IMG/VR virus record: IMGVR_UViG_3300044949_000289
Span: 1 to 25,979 of that record
DNA from: a virus
DNA length: 25,979 bases
Strand: one strand, 5' to 3'
Part shown: positions 8,041 to 23,478 of the stretch, piece by piece
Position numbering within the stretch: position 1 is the stretch's first letter
How the letters are laid out: each line of letters starts with the position of its first letter
Notes under the pieces: model-generated
What the model saw: the letters and a program-made list of their open reading frames with translations, nothing else
What the model was told of the DNA's origin: nothing
The model's database searches: none
Program-made: the position numbers and the translations under genes

Positions 8041-8811
8041 TCACCGTGGCGCGAACACCAACCGTTCAAAGATCGACGGGAACTTTTCACTGAACTTCTT
8101 GGCCAAGATGTCACGAACAGGGAATTGTGGCTCGTACCGGGGCTGACGAGTGATGTGGAAGATCGTGTGAAAGCCGCGCGCCATGCCGCCATTGCGCGGT
8201 CTTGGTCCCACACGTGCGTAGATACCACGCGGCAAGCCGCCAGGCGTACCGACGAAGAAATCAGACTCGCGCCGCTTGCGTTGCGAACGACGCGCGCCAG
8301 AGACGTTCTGCGTTGCGCCTTGCTCACGTAGGCCGCCAATGCGGCTGAGGATGCGCACCATGGTGGGGCCTGGTACGTTGCCGTACCTGTCCAGCTTGAG
8401 TGGGTAGACGCCGCCATTGGGCCTGGCCTCGGCCGGAACGATGTACTCGCCTGCCCTTAAAACGCCCTTGGCTTGCATTGCGGCTTCACTGCGCTTCTCG
8501 TTGCGCCTGCCGCCGCCGACCATTGGCTGTAGATACTTTGCGGCAGCAGTGCCTTTGACCGCAGTGTCCTTAAAGCCAAAGCGTGCCGACAGGTCACCGG
8601 GCTTGGCCTTCTCCACAAACATGGAGTTGAGAGTCCACTTGGTTGGCTGATCGACGTATCGCGGCGTGACGTTCTTCAGGTAATCGCGTGCATCGTATGC
8701 AGCGAGTGTCATGGCCTTTGCCAGATCCTTGCCAAGGTTGCCGCGCACGGCTGAAGTAAAACGAGCCAACTGATCCAGCTGGCTCGTATCAACATTGAAG
8801 CTGAGGTTCAC
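8041..8811 (-). CDS. Tail completion / minor tail protein, gpZ- or HK97 gp10-like
   Basis: 256 aa from a GTG overlapping the sliding-clamp stop (GTGA). The N-terminal part has the pattern of tail-terminator proteins: an amphipathic strand (MNLSFNVDTSQLDQLARF), a helix (DLAKAMTLAAYDARDYLKNV), then TPRYVDQPTKWTLNSM (about residues 50-65). 'ArdYLknvTPryVdqPt.wT' is a pattern I associate with minor tail protein Z and similar neck proteins. The middle is Gly/Arg/Lys-rich (VGGGRRNEKRSE) and the C-terminus ends in a helix (VRDILAKKFSEKFPSIFERL). Such proteins cap the head-proximal end of the tail. Its place upstream of small terminase and downstream of a replication gene, rather than after gpFII, is unusual. 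Function confident to 'tail or neck completion', not to exact family. Confidence 0.7.
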   Translation of the reverse strand: MNLSFNVDTSQLDQLARFTSAVRGNLGKDLAKAMTLAAYDARDYLKNVTPRYVDQPTKWTLNSMFVEKAKPGDLSARFGFKDTAVKGTAAAKYLQPMVGGGRRNEKRSEAAMQAKGVLRAGEYIVPAEARPNGGVYPLKLDRYGNVPGPTMVRILSRIGGLREQGATQNVSGARRSQRKRRESDFFVGTPGGLPRGIYARVGPRPRNGGMARGFHTIFHITRQPRYEPQFPVRDILAKKFSEKFPSIFERLVFAPR

Positions 8812-9845
8812 TCCCGCACCTGAACCGGCATGACCAGATAAGTCTGACCGATGACGACGGGCGAGGTTGAGGTGTTGGCTTGAATGGTGATATCAGTGTC
8901 CGTGAAGCCCTTGAGTCCATCCACGAGATAGTGGACGTTGATGGCCAGCTGCGGCAGCTTGCCATCACATGCGACGGACTCAGCGCCGCTGCTGGTTTCG
9001 GATTCGGCGGTCACCTCAATGGCGCCGCCCTTGACGGTCAGTCGCACGATGTCATTAGGCGAGACGCACGCGATCCGCTCCAGCGCTGCGAGCAGCGCCT
9101 CACGGTTGCAGGTGGCCAGGGTCTTGAAGGTGGCAGGGATCAGCTGCTGCACTGATGGGTAGGTGCCATCGAGCGTGCGGGTGATCATGCGCGTGGCAGT
9201 GTCCAGTTGGATTGCGACGTGGCCGCCGTCTACGGCGAAGGATGCAGGGTTCCGCACCTGCGTCATGGCGCGGGATGGGATGACCACATCCATGTCTGGC
9301 GCATTGCATGTCAGCGTGCGCGTCGCAAGCCGATGGCCATCGGTGGCTTCCATGCGCAGCTCGCTGCCGTCGGATACCAAGTGAATGCCGGTGAGCACCT
9401 GCTTCGCCTCATCAGTGCTGGCGGCAACAAGCACAGCAGCCAATGGCGCCGCCAGGTCGATCACAGCGCCATCAGCAGCATCCACGGCAGGCAGCCCGGG
9501 GAAATCATCAGCAGAGGCCGCTGAGAGGCTGTAGGAGCCGCCTGCGGTGGCCAGCGCCACGCGATCACCGTCAACGGTCAACGAGACCACGCTGGCGGCG
9601 TCTAGCCGGCCTGTGATGTCCGCCAGCAGGCGATGCGGCACGACGGTGGCGCCAGCAGTGTCAACCATGGCGTCGATGCTGGTCTGTATGCCGATGCTCA
9701 GGTCGTAGGCGGTGAGCTGCAGGCTCCCGCCATCAGCGCGGAGCAGGACGCCCGACAGGATCGGATGGGTCTTGCCGTTGCCGACAGCACGCGCCACGGC
9801 ACGCAGCGCACGGCTGAGGTCGGATTGGGTGCAGGTGATCTTCAT
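8808..9845 (-). CDS. dnaN: DNA polymerase III beta-type sliding clamp
   Basis: 345 aa, slightly short of the 365-385 of bacterial clamps. Three repeated clamp folds can be followed: domain 1 begins MKITCTQSDLSRALRAVARA and includes HPILSGVLLRADGG and LQLTAYDLSIGI; domain 2 contains LTGIHLVSDGSELRMEATDG and HRLATRTL (about 155-180); domain 3 contains DGTYPSVQQLIPATF (about 225-240), NVHYLVDGLKGF and the terminal YLVMPVQVRE. The C-terminal YLxMPVQ(V/I)R is the DnaN signature next to the peptide-binding pocket. It would tether a polymerase to DNA. No polymerase gene is visible, so it may recruit the host replicase or one encoded elsewhere. ATGA overlap with the 67-aa gene upstream and GTGA overlap with the tail gene downstream. 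Confidence 0.95.
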   Translation of the reverse strand: MKITCTQSDLSRALRAVARAVGNGKTHPILSGVLLRADGGSLQLTAYDLSIGIQTSIDAMVDTAGATVVPHRLLADITGRLDAASVVSLTVDGDRVALATAGGSYSLSAASADDFPGLPAVDAADGAVIDLAAPLAAVLVAASTDEAKQVLTGIHLVSDGSELRMEATDGHRLATRTLTCNAPDMDVVIPSRAMTQVRNPASFAVDGGHVAIQLDTATRMITRTLDGTYPSVQQLIPATFKTLATCNREALLAALERIACVSPNDIVRLTVKGGAIEVTAESETSSGAESVACDGKLPQLAINVHYLVDGLKGFTDTDITIQANTSTSPVVIGQTYLVMPVQVRE

Positions 9846-10101: not shown

Positions 10102-10358
10102 CCTAACAGACCTAACGCATTCCTAACAGGCTCTGTTAGGTCGAAACCCCTTGCCATCACTGGGTTCTCTCCCTTACCTAACAGACCTAACAGAAAAAGG
10201 TATAGATACATATGAGAGAAGACCTTACCTACTGGGTAGGGGGTACTACTCCTCTCTATAAGGGGGTCTTCCGAAAATCCGTTAGGACCGTTAGGTTTGT
10301 TAGGAATGAGTGGTGGACTGGGTTTTGGGCCTAACCAGCGCCTAACAGACCTAACAGC
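10102..10358. repeat. Iteron array (9-bp unit CCTAACAGA) with central dyad; candidate replication origin
   Basis: The core CCTAAC or its complement GTTAGG occurs about twelve times. Forward copies start at 10102, 10111, 10122, 10177, 10186, 10330, 10341 and 10350. Reverse copies start at 10135 (as CTGTTAGG 10133-10140), 10281, 10290 and 10299. Pairs at 10177/10186 and 10341/10350 and the triplet 10281/10290/10299 have an exact 9-bp period. CCTAACAG and CTGTTAGG at 10122-10140 form a perfect 8-bp hairpin with a 3-base loop. Between the arms is GAAGACC (10218-10224) / GGTCTTC (10265-10271) and an A+T-rich stretch at 10192-10220 in an otherwise G+C-rich region. The array abuts and enters the 3' end of the primase-helicase gene. 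Iterons plus an A+T-rich segment plus adjacent primase are the usual parts of an origin. Confidence 0.65.
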
Positions 10359-12820
10359 TCGATGCTCATTTGCACGGCGCGGCTGGTTCCGCCGCCACCT
10401 TTGAACCAAACAGCACCGGTCTTCACAGCACCTGGCAAGCGCGCCAGCACGATCGGCCAGCAGTTGCCCCATGCCGTATCGGAGAGCATGTGAGCGATGG
10501 CGTTAGCCGTGTTGCTGACGATCACGCAGCCGTCCTCCGCCTTGATGCCATGGCGTCCGAGTACGTTCTGCGCCTCTGTCGGGGTGACATGCGGATCACT
10601 GCCGCGGTGCAGCGCCAGCTCAACCAGCTCTGCGATGGTGCGCGTGACAGTGCGGTCACCTTCAACGCGTAGCTGGTGCTGCAGGATCGTCTGCAGGCAA
10701 CGCCGCTCGTCTGGCACCTCAACGGCCTGGCTGTAGGCAGTCCAGTCGTTCTGCTCGATCAATGCCCATGCCTGCTCGCGGGTGACCACCTCACGCGACT
10801 GCAGCGCCCATGCACCGGCCAGCAGGGTGCCGTACTGATCGCCAAGGCGCTGCGAGTCGAATGCCTCGGCCGCGGCCTTGACGAAGACCTTGACCGACTG
10901 GCGGATGGTGGGGATCAGCGCGATGGTGCGCGCGATCAGGCGTTGACCGACCTGCTCCGAGATGAAGCGGTCAAGGTCGCGATCCAATGCCTCCCAGTGC
11001 GCGGCGCGTTCATCCTTTGGCAGCTCGGCCGGGTTGCGGAGCGTGAGCTGCGCAAAGCGGGATTTGTCCGCACCCTGCTTCAGCGCAGTGGCGATGCTGC
11101 TCATCAGGAACATGGATCGGATGGTGTAGCGCTGCGTATCACCTTCTGGAGAACCCTTAAGCGTGTGTGCGCGGCTTTCGCTGCTGGCGACACGCGCAAG
11201 GCCGAGCACTGCTTGCATCCGCTGCTGATCGTTGCGCTCATTGCTCTCGGCCTCGTCGAAGACCACTGGCAGCGCATCAGCGCGCAGGGCCTGCCGGATG
11301 CCAGGCTCGGTGGTGTTGCCTGCAACGATCAGGCCCATGTCACCGAGCAGTGGGGTGACATATCGCCCGAGCACTTCGGACTTGCCGGAGCCGGAGCCTG
11401 CGGTCAGCCAGGCATGTGGCCGCCAGTCGAGCGCACCGCAGATGGGCGCCAGAGTGACCCAACCAGCCAGCAGCATCCCGGATGCCGGCACCTCCCACAG
11501 GAAGCGCTCAGCAAGGTCAAGCACCTGGAAGGCGCCGTCGTCATCCAATGGCTGCACGCCGGACGGCCCCTGCAAGCGGCTGAGGCGCTGGTAAACGTAA
11601 CTGCTGCCGGTGATGCCATCGCATACGGTGCGGTTGGCGCCATCGACGATCAGCTGATCGCCAAGGTGCAGCACTGAGCGGCCGCCATCCCACCATGCAC
11701 CACGCCCGCGGATGCGATCGGGAGAGTAGACACCAGCCGCGGCCTGCTGGGTAAACATGCTGCTAGCGGCTGCAGTCCAGTTGACGCCTGTCTTGCTGGG
11801 ATAGAGCGTCTCCCAGTACGACAGTGGCGCCAGCGCACAGAGGTTGGTGCCGGTGTGGCTGCTGCGCGATAGGCGGCAGACTTGCCCGGTGCTGATCGGC
11901 TGGTAGTAGTAGCCATCACCGTCAAAGCCAAGGCAGGTGAAGTGCTCACCAGCGGCCGGCAGCGGTTCGGGGTCTGGCTGCGCTACAGGCTCCGGCTGCT
12001 CCGGTGCAGCGGTTGGCGCCTCGATTGGCGGTGAGCGGTTGGCCTTGAGGTAGGCAGCGGCTTCGGCTGGCGTCCATGTGGCATCAGCAAGATCCCAGCC
12101 ATCGGCGACGCCATCTGGTGTGGTGACGATCCGCACCTGCGCCACGCCAATCGACAGCAGGCGCCCGGCCAGCTTGACCATCGCCTGGCGGCCGACATCA
12201 TCAGCATCAGGCCATAGGGTGCAGCGCCGCCCGGCCAGCGGCGTCCAGTCGGCCTTGTCGATCGCTTTGCAGCCTGATGGCCATGTGGCGACCGCCGCCG
12301 ATGGGAACAGGCGTGCAGCAGCATCGGCGGTCTTCTCACCTTCAACGATCAGCACCGGCGCATCAGCGGCCCGCCGCGCCCAGTACAGCGGTCTTGGTGC
12401 TGGCGGTGCCTTCCATCGCCAGCCAGTGCCGTCGTACCAGAGGGGTCGGATCTTCTTGCCAGGGAAGCGGCAGACGATGAAGGTGCTGCTGTACTGCCAG
12501 ACCTGCTCAGCACCGGTAGTCGGTGGATCCGGCACTACCGATAGGTGCTGCTCAATGCGCTGGCACGCTTCGGCATACGGCCAGCCGGTGATGCGCGTGA
12601 GCAGGTCCATGCCATTGCCTCCACCGCCGGCGCCATCCTTCCCTCCGCACTGGTTGCAGAACCATGATCCGGTGCCGTCCTTGTCGTCGAAGCGGTAGCG
12701 ATCACTGCCGCCGCAGCATGGGCAGGGCTGATGCTTGTCGGTCAGCTGGTCAGCCGTAAGGCCAGCAAGCGCCGCCAGCAGGTCCGGCCACCTGCCGCGG
12801 GCTAGGTCTTGAATGCTCAT
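10331..12820 (-). CDS. Primase-helicase (zinc finger, TOPRIM, DUF927-like helicase)
   Basis: 829 aa. Residues 33-58 hold a CHC2-like zinc finger (CPCC...CNQC). TOPRIM motifs follow: LIVEGEKTADAAARLF (Glu160) and TLWPDADDVGRQAMVKLAGR (Asp205/Asp207). A Pro/Glu-rich linker at about 263-290 separates the primase half from a DUF927-type ATPase: Walker A AGSGSGKSE (Lys480), Walker B PVVFDEAESNE (Asp522-Glu523) and a helicase arginine region near ADKSRFAQLTLRNPAE. The C-terminal roughly 250 residues are helical. It should synthesise primers and unwind DNA at a phage origin. The last residues (LLGLLGAG) are encoded by the iteron repeats and the TAG lies in a repeat. ATGA overlap with the small RHH gene upstream suggests joint control. 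Similar single-protein initiators are known in satellite phages and plasmids. Confidence 0.92.
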   Translation of the reverse strand: MSIQDLARGRWPDLLAALAGLTADQLTDKHQPCPCCGGSDRYRFDDKDGTGSWFCNQCGGKDGAGGGGNGMDLLTRITGWPYAEACQRIEQHLSVVPDPPTTGAEQVWQYSSTFIVCRFPGKKIRPLWYDGTGWRWKAPPAPRPLYWARRAADAPVLIVEGEKTADAAARLFPSAAVATWPSGCKAIDKADWTPLAGRRCTLWPDADDVGRQAMVKLAGRLLSIGVAQVRIVTTPDGVADGWDLADATWTPAEAAAYLKANRSPPIEAPTAAPEQPEPVAQPDPEPLPAAGEHFTCLGFDGDGYYYQPISTGQVCRLSRSSHTGTNLCALAPLSYWETLYPSKTGVNWTAAASSMFTQQAAAGVYSPDRIRGRGAWWDGGRSVLHLGDQLIVDGANRTVCDGITGSSYVYQRLSRLQGPSGVQPLDDDGAFQVLDLAERFLWEVPASGMLLAGWVTLAPICGALDWRPHAWLTAGSGSGKSEVLGRYVTPLLGDMGLIVAGNTTEPGIRQALRADALPVVFDEAESNERNDQQRMQAVLGLARVASSESRAHTLKGSPEGDTQRYTIRSMFLMSSIATALKQGADKSRFAQLTLRNPAELPKDERAAHWEALDRDLDRFISEQVGQRLIARTIALIPTIRQSVKVFVKAAAEAFDSQRLGDQYGTLLAGAWALQSREVVTREQAWALIEQNDWTAYSQAVEVPDERRCLQTILQHQLRVEGDRTVTRTIAELVELALHRGSDPHVTPTEAQNVLGRHGIKAEDGCVIVSNTANAIAHMLSDTAWGNCWPIVLARLPGAVKTGAVWFKGGGGTSRAVQMSIELLGLLGAG

Positions 12821-12948
12821 TGCTTAAGCGCCCGCTCCAGTAGCACACGGATCGCCGTTGCACGCGACATGGCATCACCACGCCACGCATCCAGTCGCCG
12901 CAACAGCTCAGGCGTCAGTCGCACGGGTGTGGGATGGGCAAGACGCAT
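12817..12948 (-). CDS. Small ribbon-helix-helix (CopG/Arc-like) DNA-binding protein
   Basis: 43 aa, ATG at 12948 to TGA at 12817, overlapping the primase ATG (ATGA). The sequence MRLAHPTPVRLTPELLRRLD then AWRGDAMSRATAIRVLLERA is a clean ribbon-helix-helix: a short basic strand (TPVRLT), helix 1 (PELLRRLDAWRG), a turn, and helix 2 (SRATAIRVLLERALK). Such proteins dimerise and bind inverted or direct repeats in operators. It is the first gene of the minus-strand replication and packaging block and lies at the edge of the divergent spacer, so control of one or both outward promoters is likely. Too short for ordinary ORF thresholds and easily missed. Confidence 0.8.
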   Translation of the reverse strand: MRLAHPTPVRLTPELLRRLDAWRGDAMSRATAIRVLLERALKQ

Positions 12949-13071
12949 CAGCTCGCGGTGGGGGCTTGCGGACTGTAGCCGCCGCTGCTACGGTCAGCAA
13001 GCCTTGCGGAGTTCACGGACGCATCGCCTCTTAGGCGGTTTACGCGTACATTCCGCAGCACCTATCGCAAC
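12949..13071. promoter_or_regulatory. Divergent control region between the minus- and plus-strand operons
   Basis: 123 bases separating two divergently transcribed blocks, so promoters for both are expected. Visible signals are a direct repeat CTTGCGGA at 12965-12972 and 13003-13010, an inverted repeat GTAGC/GCTAC around 12975-12991, and a 13-base palindrome CGCCTCTTAGGCG at 13025-13037. No strong -35/-10 pair is evident on either strand; TACATT at 13047-13052 is a weak plus-strand -10 candidate. These repeats could be targets for the adjacent RHH protein. Confidence 0.45.
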
Positions 13072-14067
13072 ATGCAGCAACTTCTATTCATCGACGAGCC
13101 GCCGCCAACGGCTTTGCCGCCTCCTGCAAACTGCAGCGGTCCGCCCATCTGGGGATGTGACTATGGCGGCGGATACTTTCACGCATGGCGCAATGGCAAA
13201 TCAATTCGACTACGCCCAGACCAATTCGCCGCGCTTGCGTTCACGCAGCCCGGTGACATCATCATCGTCGAGAATGCTCACATGCAGCCAAGGAAGAAAA
13301 GCCTTGCGCAGGTTTACACATTCGATGAGCTAATCCAGATCCAATCGCGTGCCAATGATCTTAAAGTCAGCATTCGGCTTTGGTTTCACGGATTAACGCC
13401 GAAATGGCGACGCATCCTGAAAATGGATAGCAAGTCCGATGAGGTTGACGCCGAGACTATTGCAAGGATTGCCATGCGCCGTGGCATTACTGACTTGCAG
13501 TACTTCAATCCACGCAGCGATTATCCGCCGCGCATCTTGTGGGCGCATGAGCAGATTACTGACATGAATGACATCCTGAACATGGCAAGGATTGACTACA
13601 TGGCAAAGACTTGCCCATGCGTTTATGAGTACATCACTCGCGGTCAGCATGGGAGCTTGCATTGCGCATGGCGGCGGCATGGCGCGTTTTCAAGCATTGT
13701 GCAGGACATGGTGACCTTTTTTCATAGCAAGGAGGCATTCAAGCAGGGCGTTAGCTTATGGGCGGCGCTTGTTGATTACCAAGGGAATCCACGGACTTAC
13801 GAAGGCCGCCAGCCCGGCGTGAAGTTTGTGATGAACGAACTCCTGCGCATGAGGCCGAATCATTTTCGCGGCGGCGTTGCTCGCAGCAATTTGATGTATC
13901 ACGGCTTCCGCAATCACGCAATCGCGCATCTTGGCATACGCAAGGATGGCACAAAGCTGCATGAGTTTAGCCCATCGCAGCACGCCAAATGGTTGGCATT
14001 CCGGCAAAGGTATCGCCGCGCCATGGTGGCCATGCTTCATTCAATGAAGGACTACATCAACTCTTAG
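13072..14067 (+). CDS. RuvC-like DEDD protein with IS110-type catalytic core
   Basis: 331 aa. The N-terminal 135 residues carry an RNase H/RuvC fold pattern: strand with first aspartate IWGCDYGGGYFHAWRN (Asp30), acidic strand DIIIVENAH (Glu67), and KSDEVDAETIARIA (Asp123, Asp126). This D-E-D-x-x-D-A arrangement and its spacing match the DEDD domain of IS110-family recombinases (K-T-D-x-x-D-A) and, more loosely, RuvC resolvases. The C-terminal part (about 170-331: GAFSSIVQDMVTFFHSKEAF, GGVARSNLMYHGFRNHAIAH) is not recognised, and the IS110 hallmark IPGxG is not seen. It may be a phage Holliday-junction resolvase or a domesticated IS110-like recombinase. Base composition is visibly richer in A+T than the helicase genes that follow. 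First plus-strand gene after the divergent spacer; followed by a structured spacer. An in-frame ATG at 13072 with no strong ribosome site is used. Confidence 0.7.
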   Translation: MQQLLFIDEPPPTALPPPANCSGPPIWGCDYGGGYFHAWRNGKSIRLRPDQFAALAFTQPGDIIIVENAHMQPRKKSLAQVYTFDELIQIQSRANDLKVSIRLWFHGLTPKWRRILKMDSKSDEVDAETIARIAMRRGITDLQYFNPRSDYPPRILWAHEQITDMNDILNMARIDYMAKTCPCVYEYITRGQHGSLHCAWRRHGAFSSIVQDMVTFFHSKEAFKQGVSLWAALVDYQGNPRTYEGRQPGVKFVMNELLRMRPNHFRGGVARSNLMYHGFRNHAIAHLGIRKDGTKLHEFSPSQHAKWLAFRQRYRRAMVAMLHSMKDYINS

Positions 14068-21777: not shown

Positions 21778-21953
21778 AGCCGCTCCAGCTGTACCGCGTG
21801 GCATTCAGCCACGCCGCACCGCTCCACCTGATGGCCCGTGACCTTGCGCACGCCATCACCAGCGCCAAGGAACTATGCCCTGATGCTCAGTTCCTGAGCG
21901 CCACGCTGATGCCCGAATGGGACAACACTGATGACCTGAACCATGAGCACTGA
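21774..21953 (+). CDS. 59-aa hypothetical protein preceding the sigma factor
   Basis: MKPLQLYRVAFSHAAPLHLM, ARDLAHAITSAKELCPDAQF, then LMPEWDNTDDLNHEH. It has the beta-alpha look of short phage proteins that start with a 'Y-R-V-x-F' strand followed by a helix with 'A-x-x-x-A-x-E-L-x-P-x-A'. His- and Asp-rich at the end. ATGA overlap upstream and 11-base overlap with the sigma gene, so it should be co-translated with it and could modulate it; nothing in the sequence proves this. Confidence 0.65.
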   Translation: MKPLQLYRVAFSHAAPLHLMARDLAHAITSAKELCPDAQFLSATLMPEWDNTDDLNHEH

Positions 21954-22812
21954 CAGCATTAAGGATTACCTGACCGAGATCGGTCGGTTCCCGCTACTGA
22001 CTGGCGAGCAGGAGATCCAGCTATCCCGCCAGGTGCGGCGCATGATAGAACTGCAAGCCATGGAAGGCGAACGCACTAAAGAAGAGCTGCGCGCGATCAA
22101 GCGCGGCCAGCGAGCGCGTGAAACCATGATGAACTGCAACCTGCGGCTGGTAGTTCACATCGCCAAGAACTACGTGACCAGGCTCAAGTCCAATGGCCTT
22201 GAACTGATGGACCTTATTCAGGAGGGCGCCATTGGCTTGAACCGCGCCGTTGAGCTATTCGATGGCACCAAGGGCTACAAATTTTCTACCTACGGCTACT
22301 GGTGGATCCGTCAGTCGATTACACGCGCGATTGATACAAAGGAGCGCCTGATCCGCGTGCCGCAGCATGTACTAGATGCCACGTACAAGATTGCCAAGAT
22401 GCAACGTGAGCATCTGCAGCAACATGGCAGGCCGATGTCAACAGCAGAATGCGCTGAGCGAATGGAGATGAGTCAGCACGAGCTGCAATCGCACATTATG
22501 CGAAACGTACCGCACAGCAGCCTAGATCAACTGGTCAGGGATGATGGCTCGCCATTGGTTGACATGATCGTTGACGAGCATCAGCCTTACGACGATTCGC
22601 TATCCGTGGAATATACCGAGCAACTAGAACTGGCGCTGTCATTCCTTGCTGACCGGGATCGCGATATTGTCGCCAGTTACCACGGATTAGGAGCGCCGAA
22701 AAAGACGCAAGGCAAGATTGCTGAGGAGCTTGGCATAACGCGTAGCGCGGTTGGCCAGATCCATGATCGGTCGATGCGGCGGCTTCGTTTGATGCTCACC
22801 GAGAAACGCTGA
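21943..22812 (+). CDS. Sigma-70 family RNA polymerase sigma factor, cyanobacterial group 2-like
   Basis: 289 aa. Region 1.2 is DSIKDYLTEIGRFPLLTGEQ (residues 4-23), very like the start of cyanobacterial group 1/2 sigmas. Region 2: NLRLVVHIAKNYVTRLKSNG (66-85), LELMDLIQEGAIGLNRAVEL, FDGTKGYKFSTYGYWWIRQS with ITRAI (to 130; 2.3 and 2.4). Region 3 spans 135-200, with HSSLDQLVRDDGSPLVDMI. Region 4: ALSFLADRDRDIVASYHGLG and TQGKIAEELGITRSAVGQIH, a complete -35-binding HTH, ending at DRSMRRLRLML. All core regions are present, so it should be active. The long acidic/basic helix at 38-60 replaces the usual short 1.2-2.1 linker. Last gene of the plus-strand operon. Likely redirects host polymerase to later phage promoters, which is inference. 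Its last 126 bases are antisense to the opposing gene. Confidence 0.95.
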   Translation: MSTDSIKDYLTEIGRFPLLTGEQEIQLSRQVRRMIELQAMEGERTKEELRAIKRGQRARETMMNCNLRLVVHIAKNYVTRLKSNGLELMDLIQEGAIGLNRAVELFDGTKGYKFSTYGYWWIRQSITRAIDTKERLIRVPQHVLDATYKIAKMQREHLQQHGRPMSTAECAERMEMSQHELQSHIMRNVPHSSLDQLVRDDGSPLVDMIVDEHQPYDDSLSVEYTEQLELALSFLADRDRDIVASYHGLGAPKKTQGKIAEELGITRSAVGQIHDRSMRRLRLMLTEKR

Positions 22813-23312: not shown

Positions 23313-23478
23313 GCAACTCAGGGATGGGTAGGACGTTGACCGAGAGGCCCAGGATGTGATCGTTAGATGGTGCCAATTCTGTTAGGCGAGAAACGAAATC
23401 ATCGCTAACAGTTTCGGGATCGTCGTCTTCGCTTTCGACGACGATGGTGTACTCGATCTCAAGAACGTACTGCCTCAT
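23296..23478 (-). CDS. 60-aa acidic hypothetical protein
   Basis: MRQYVLEIEYTIVVESEDDD, then PETVSDDFVSRLTELAPSND and GLSVNVLPIPELRG. A beta-strand, an acidic loop, a helix and another strand; strongly negative. It is placed between the phosphoesterase (ATGA overlap) and the HNH enzyme (17-base overlap), so it is part of the same transcript. The acidic character could mimic DNA or bind a basic partner, for example to hold the HNH enzyme in check. This is conjecture from charge and position only. Confidence 0.6.
   Translation of the reverse strand: MRQYVLEIEYTIVVESEDDDPETVSDDFVSRLTELAPSNDHILGLSVNVLPIPELRGSSD

Follow-up and report, generated by a model that had tools for sequence, protein, structure and literature searches.

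Co-variation between the repeats of a putative cyanophage replication origin and one residue of the adjacent primase-helicase

How an initiator protein and all of the repeats that it recognises can change their specificity together is an open question, and it is raised by an array of short repeats at the 3' end of a primase-helicase gene in the virus record IMGVR_UViG_3300044949_000289 of IMG/VR, the whole 25,979 bases of which are referred to here as the window. An initial annotation had proposed that these repeats constitute the phage origin and are recognised by the neighboring 829-aa protein. That proposal is strongly supported by comparison with relatives, as the layout is kept and the repeated word co-varies with residue 805 of the protein. 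Judged from this comparative evidence, it is very likely that the region serves a tailed cyanophage as its origin of replication, that its repeats are iterons read by the C-terminal domain of the primase-helicase and that residue 805 reads the last two bases of each repeat. The observation behind the initial annotation is right, and its reading of the array, as an origin that the primase recognises, very probably holds in essence, subject to the corrections given below. A literature search confined to open-access sources, and so missing most subscription journals, retrieved no publication describing this origin.

The hexamer CCTAAC/GTTAGG occurs 13 times in the window as compared to 3.96 +/- 1.95 times in dinucleotide shuffles, with none of 100 shuffles reaching 13. 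About twelve copies had been reported between 10102 and 10358, and exactly 12 are found there, at 10102-10355 (eight CCTAAC and four GTTAGG), while the thirteenth is an outlying copy at position 23381. Neither the window nor G007, a complete relative, contains a second cluster of the word. The sites are 6-bp words in both orientations with a spacing of 8-12 bp (Table 1), and the exact 9-bp tandems described previously (10177/10186, 10341/10350 and 10281/10290/10299) were all recovered, together with an additional pair at 10102/10111. Read in the direction of the primase gene, the order of the sites is >>> <<< centre >> < >>>, with A1-A3 forward, B1-B3 reverse, a repeat-free centre, C1-C2 forward, D1 reverse and E1-E3 forward, which replaces the earlier picture of two arms of opposite orientation. 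The array adjoins the primase gene, but the interval 10330-10355 is not intergenic, with the gene ending at 10331 within a repeat. Sites A1-A3 thus overlap the 3' end of the gene, and A1 and A2 fall within its last codons.

Table 1. Positions of the repeat sites, of the centre between them and of the proposed initiator gene in the window.
Feature	Position	Strand	Remark
Site E3	10102..10107	-	
Site E2	10111..10116	-	
Site E1	10122..10127	-	
Site D1	10135..10140	+	
Site C2	10177..10182	-	
Site C1	10186..10191	-	
A+T-rich block, 73%	10188..10217	.	no 30-mer in the window is richer in A+T
Centre free of repeats, separating the arms	10192..10280	.	B3-to-C1 distance ~92-107 nt in most relatives
Site B3	10281..10286	+	
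Site B2	10290..10295	+	
Site B1	10299..10304	+	GTTAGG on + strand
Site A3	10330..10335	-	contains primase stop codon TAG
Site A2	10341..10346	-	inside primase gene 3' end
Site A1	10350..10355	-	GTTAGG on - strand; inside primase gene 3' end
Primase-helicase, 829 aa, proposed initiator	10331..12820	-	Zn_Ribbon_Prim; phrog_35358 DNA primase
Primase residues 799-819, C-terminal beta-hairpin	10364..10426	-	803, 805, 809, 812 and 817 rank high for word association
Trp805 codon	10406..10408	-	residue predictive of the word's final two bases
Primase residues 704-769, winged-helix-like part of C-terminal domain	10514..10711	-	

The array is not peculiar to the window. Relatives of the primase, with identities from 98 to ~30% in the C-terminal domain, are found in viral contigs both close and distant as well as in a beta-proteobacterial MAG (L107), and an array next to the primase is kept in some 90 non-redundant relatives (about a hundred overall). 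Nearly all of the nearer relatives have the array after the primase on one spacing grid, with a median of 11 sites (~12) and a centre of ~100 nt. The gene that follows the array varies among relatives, being a 67-aa ORF, a ribbon-helix-helix (RHH) gene or a gene for a 220-230-aa protein, while the array stays, which ties the array to the primase. S-H1 (MK105819), an isolated Synechococcus phage whose genome includes genes for terminase, coat and tail, shares with the window the order primase, gap, small gene, clamp and terminase. Repeats were not visible behind the primase gene of the distant Dolphis, PBb002, PHB04, MQ-4 and Mwe-JY13, and the primases of L114 and KLER1-1 returned no viral relatives when used as queries. 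Prophage-like regions with this primase and origin layout also occur in Cyanobium, Synechococcus and Vulcanococcus genomes (L086-L119); one of these chromosomal regions (L086) contains an apparent large terminase ORF and is therefore likely a prophage. The 34.8-kb close relative G007 (the contig of L023, with L310 at its start and L311 at its end) ends inside the origin and has an exact 84-bp terminal repeat, so that this record looks like a complete circularised genome.

Downstream of the array in the window, on the same strand as the primase, are a 67-aa ORF, a DNA polymerase III beta clamp gene, a minor tail protein gene and a small terminase gene. The phage-coded sliding clamp (8808-9845, minus strand) lies directly behind the origin, an order also seen in S-H1. 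Elsewhere the window codes for a sigma-70 factor with regions 1.2, 2, 3 and 4 (21943-22812, plus strand) and for a 331-aa protein (13072-14067, plus strand) that has a weak match to the IS110 DEDD transposase domain (E 0.0056, below Pfam's cut-off) and no PHROG. A short RHH-like ORF with a weak Pfam match (E 0.31) overlaps the start of the primase gene (12817-12969, minus strand). No tRNAs were found, and a search of Rfam gave a single match at chance level.

The A+T-rich stretch that had been pointed out previously is the block at 10188-10217, which begins just inside site C1 and runs into the centre, and it is the probable melting site. The A+T-richest 30-mer of the surrounding 1.8 kb falls in the repeat-free centre in 70 of 85 relatives as compared to 4.5 expected, a count in which the window is not among the 70 given the definition of the centre that was used. 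Other elements proposed for this region are present at their reported positions, namely an 8-bp hairpin at 10122-10140, the dyad GAAGACC/GGTCTTC and its inner hairpin (CCTACTGGGTAGG), but they do not all hold as functional elements. The dyad folds no better than shuffled sequence in the window (z 0.18) and is not kept in relatives, and a cruciform at this position was rejected on these grounds. The hairpin at 10122-10140 consists of two adjacent sites of opposite orientation at a spacing of 12. This spacing recurs in most relatives irrespective of their word, so that the arrangement appears to reflect how the sites are spaced and not a hairpin. Cumulative GC skew, suggested initially as a check on the origin, proved uninformative. 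Its minimum lies near the array in the complete relative G007 but not in G001, G002, G003, G006 or S-H1, being far from the array in another complete relative and in S-H1, and skew amplitudes are close to those of a random walk. The position of the origin is not marked consistently.

The proposed initiator matches Zn_Ribbon_Prim as well as primase/helicase families, and no Pfam family of the SaPI-Rep type (DUF927 or D5_N/Primase_C) was detected in it. An AlphaFold2 model of residues 600-829, built from 83 sequences, has a mean pLDDT of 90.6. In this model residues 704-769 have the element order of a winged helix, and strands 799-806 and 811-819 form a beta-hairpin that bears residues 803, 805, 812 and 817 and has residue 809 in its turn. 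Foldseek returned no significant match to the model, and a search of solved structures with a primase sequence profile found no real relative. VIA-align, run on the candidates from Foldseek, gave weak similarities, the best relevant one being to TcpK (Z 4.6-4.8), with SaPIbov1 Rep (8tch, Z 4.5 over 168 residues), SCCmec Cch (5dgk, Z 4.1) and PriRep1 with dsDNA (7pds, Z 3.2) below it. These Z values are middling and by themselves no proof of kinship, but the proteins named bind an origin or oriT in mobile elements.

What varies among the relatives is the word itself. It had been anticipated that repeats not conserved alongside a conserved primase would speak against an origin. Most relatives do have other letters, yet the grid persists and the spelling goes with the protein. 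The word differs between lineages with nearly always all of its copies switched together, giving GTTAGG, GTGAGG, GTAAGA, GTGAGA, GTAACA, GTTACA or GTGACA, and in grid orientation it is mostly of the form Y-G-T-N-A-S-R. Mixed arrays occur in L025 and S-H1 (GTTAGG with GTTCGG) and in L056 (GTAAGA with GTCAGA), while L107 has GTGACA, L114 has GTTTGG, L261 has GTATGG and L247 has GTATGA. The clearest switch is provided by L022, which forms a near-isogenic pair with the window. Its primase is 94% identical to that of the window and the flanking genes are near-identical, yet all 12 copies have changed by one base from GTTAGG to GTGAGG, and 35 of the 41 lineage-specific differences in its primase fall in residues 619-829, with six before.

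The last two bases of the word follow a simple rule, with Trp at residue 805 accompanying GG, Tyr or His accompanying GA, and Arg accompanying CA or CG. Among a first set of 43 non-redundant primases, residue 805 ranks above all other alignment columns for word class (nMI 0.66, as compared to 0.47 for residue 817 and 0.38 for residue 809), and when only the class of the last two bases is considered its nMI is 0.76 versus 0.36 for the next column. In later loci the corresponding values are 0.80 for residue 805 and 0.35 for the next C-terminal column. A first form of the rule preceded the refined one (Trp/GG, Tyr or His/GA, Arg/C), which was fixed after the genome contigs and S-H1 had been inspected and before the viral loci L175-L309 were analysed, and all 36 of these hold-out loci that have a callable word fit it: 21 are Arg with CA or CG, and Trp/GG, Tyr/GA and His/GA are represented by five loci each. 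Two of the hold-out Trp loci are 89-92% identical to S-H1 and consequently not wholly independent of it. Across the whole later set the rule is followed by 36 of 36 Arg loci and by 17 of 17 loci with Trp, Tyr or His, counts that leave out 23 of 78 loci for want of a callable word; the latter include distant primases without visible repeats, five His805 loci with GTAAT-type words and the distant phage KLER1-1 (L172), which is an exception to the rule in having Arg805 with TGT[AT]AGC words. The five His805 loci (L214, L217, L250, L252 and L256) are distant, and their words resemble GTAATA, ending in TA, rather than GTAAGA; they are possibly a further branch of the rule. For the variable third base only an association of Ser803 with G is suggestive, and no single primase column predicts this base in the later loci. 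In a sliding-window comparison of identity with word class over the whole primase, the C-terminal domain taken as a unit gave no signal, which is to be expected if few residues matter.

Locus counts overstate the evidence because relatives share history, and independence was therefore assessed on a tree built without the C-terminal domain. This tree requires 13 changes of word class and 12 at residue 805. For C versus G there are eight independent pairs on well supported branches, of which six to seven agree with Arg versus non-Arg and none is opposite (p 0.0156). For GG versus GA, four of five independent pairs agree and none is opposite, too few for significance. One further locus, L074 (6640-6990), is a natural recombinant with a breakpoint inside the origin array, so that its arms carry different words. 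Its primase and left arm resemble those of L062, L072 and L045, whereas its right arm and downstream genes resemble those of L078 (97% and 93%). Tyr805 of L074 matches the left arm only and the right arm is an exception to the rule; the locus may be a viable half-matched origin or an assembly chimera.

Since exchange at the array is seen in L022 and L074 and the codon for residue 805 lies only ~50 nt from the first site, the last primase codons and the repeats might simply travel together by recombination with residue 805 as a passenger. Such linkage is an unlikely sole cause of the rule. Equally close neighboring codons are far weaker predictors, the rule holds across C-terminal domains that are only ~30-40% identical with six to seven independent switches and no contrary case, and DnaN, encoded on the other side of the array, is no predictor (its nMI peaks at 0.31 as compared to 0.75 for residue 805 in the same 25 loci). 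Association of the word with a primase residue also bears on the possibility that the array is an operator or a centromere bound by another small protein for transcription control or partition. Binding to short repeats is known for RHH proteins, several relatives have an RHH gene next after the array, and in the window a 50-aa ORF with weak similarity to RHH lies ahead of the primase. Nonetheless, we consider this quite improbable, as the array is present with no RHH gene behind it in the window, L022, L039, L066 and L079, and no sigma-70-like promoter lies in the array, the only match in the 3.3 kb scanned being within the primase gene.

Two other functions would make the array a target of a different protein or of a different part of the same protein. 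The zinc ribbon of the primase could read the words as priming or single-strand initiation sites in ssDNA, instead of the C-terminal domain reading them in duplex. A Zn_Ribbon_Prim domain is indeed present, and T7-type primases use short trinucleotide-based sites, yet the columns most strongly associated with the word fall in the C-terminal hairpin, sequence identity over the zinc ribbon (residues 1-90) shows no relation to the word (partial r ~0) and a two-arm grid with both orientations suits duplex binding, leaving this a very unlikely explanation. A packaging (pac or cos-like) site read by the small terminase, whose gene is ~2.2 kb away, is the least probable of these alternatives. Small terminases bind repeats, and the gene order array, small gene, DnaN, tail gene and small terminase is in keeping with such a site. 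However, the word tracks the primase C-terminus, the contig ends of two complete-looking relatives (with 84-bp and 123-bp terminal repeats) are placed differently relative to the array, and an A+T-rich centre between two arms is unexpected in a pac site.

An origin read by the primase-helicase itself would work as follows. Docking sites for the phage primase-helicase would be provided by the ~12 copies of the 6-bp word, arranged on a fixed grid as two arms with six sites each, and the C-terminal domain of this protein, comprising the winged-helix-like part and hairpin 799-819, would read the word. Residue 805 would read the last two bases with help from other hairpin residues, such as Ser803 where the third base is G. 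Oligomers of the primase-helicase would dock via their C-terminal domains, presumably a single oligomer on each arm, melt the A+T-rich centre, be loaded as the helicase and then prime, with the phage's own sliding clamp, encoded just downstream, acting at the forks. It is reasonably likely that this one hairpin residue contacts the two bases directly and that specificity has repeatedly been reset together with all of the repeats, probably through recombination of a cassette that spans the end of the primase gene and the array. Some 100 natural variants give a simple rule relating one residue to two bases, with the window and L022 as a near-isogenic pair and L074 as a natural half-and-half origin, and they offer a route to origin prediction in metagenomic cyanophages.

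Several known systems share parts of this organisation. The window does not have the ~17-22 bp direct repeats in one orientation and the RepA/Rep_3-type initiator of a classical iteron plasmid origin, its candidate initiator being a primase-helicase. The closest parallels are with SaPIs, where the C-terminal domain of Rep acts on iterons directly downstream of its own gene (PMC7581432), and with PICIs, whose origins lie 3' of rep and consist of an A+T-rich region with a set of iterons on either side (PMC6092414). Similarly, the array of the window and its relatives overlaps and follows the initiator 3' end, two sets of sites flank an A+T-rich centre and recognition is assigned to the initiator C-terminal domain, here as a prediction from co-variation with residue 805, with weak fold similarity of this domain to SaPIbov1 Rep and PriRep1. 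A 2018 study called this layout unique to phage-inducible islands (PMC6092414), and the loci described here would extend it to tailed phages and prophages. These have their own terminase and tail genes and are not satellites; among the products encoded in the window are an endolysin, a minor tail protein and a small terminase. They differ further in a T7-like zinc ribbon in the primase in place of the AEP primases of SaPIs, in first sites that overlap the initiator gene and its stop codon, and in the switching of the word among lineages along with a single residue.

In phage P4 a separate crr region is required in addition, whereas the array here is single with no crr-like second cluster in the window or in G007. 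The P4 alpha protein combines a bacterial-type primase, a helicase and C-terminal winged-helix binding of origin repeats (PMC4234260). The primase/helicase families and the winged-helix-like order in our model might represent a comparable combination, with a weak fold match. A helicase C-terminal domain also binds 5-nt iterons (AAGTG direct repeats) downstream of its operon in SCCmec Cch2 (PMC7581432), which differs in having three iterons only and no fused primase. The role proposed for hairpin 799-819 has a precedent in TcpK of pCW3, a winged-helix protein that places its beta-wing, and not its recognition helix, in the major groove of oriT (PMC6137059), although TcpK is a dimer that functions in conjugation and is not an initiator. 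Finally, in the PLE satellites of Vibrio cholerae the DNA-binding domain of RepA and the origin co-vary and are swapped as a module, with the origin-directed nuclease Odn as a selective force that probably drives this co-variation (PMC8263062). By analogy, a nuclease-like pressure could lie behind word switching in these cyanophages. PLE co-variation involves ~30-bp semi-palindromic iterons and whole-domain swaps in a handful of elements, as compared to 6-bp words and a one-residue rule in ~100 phages here.
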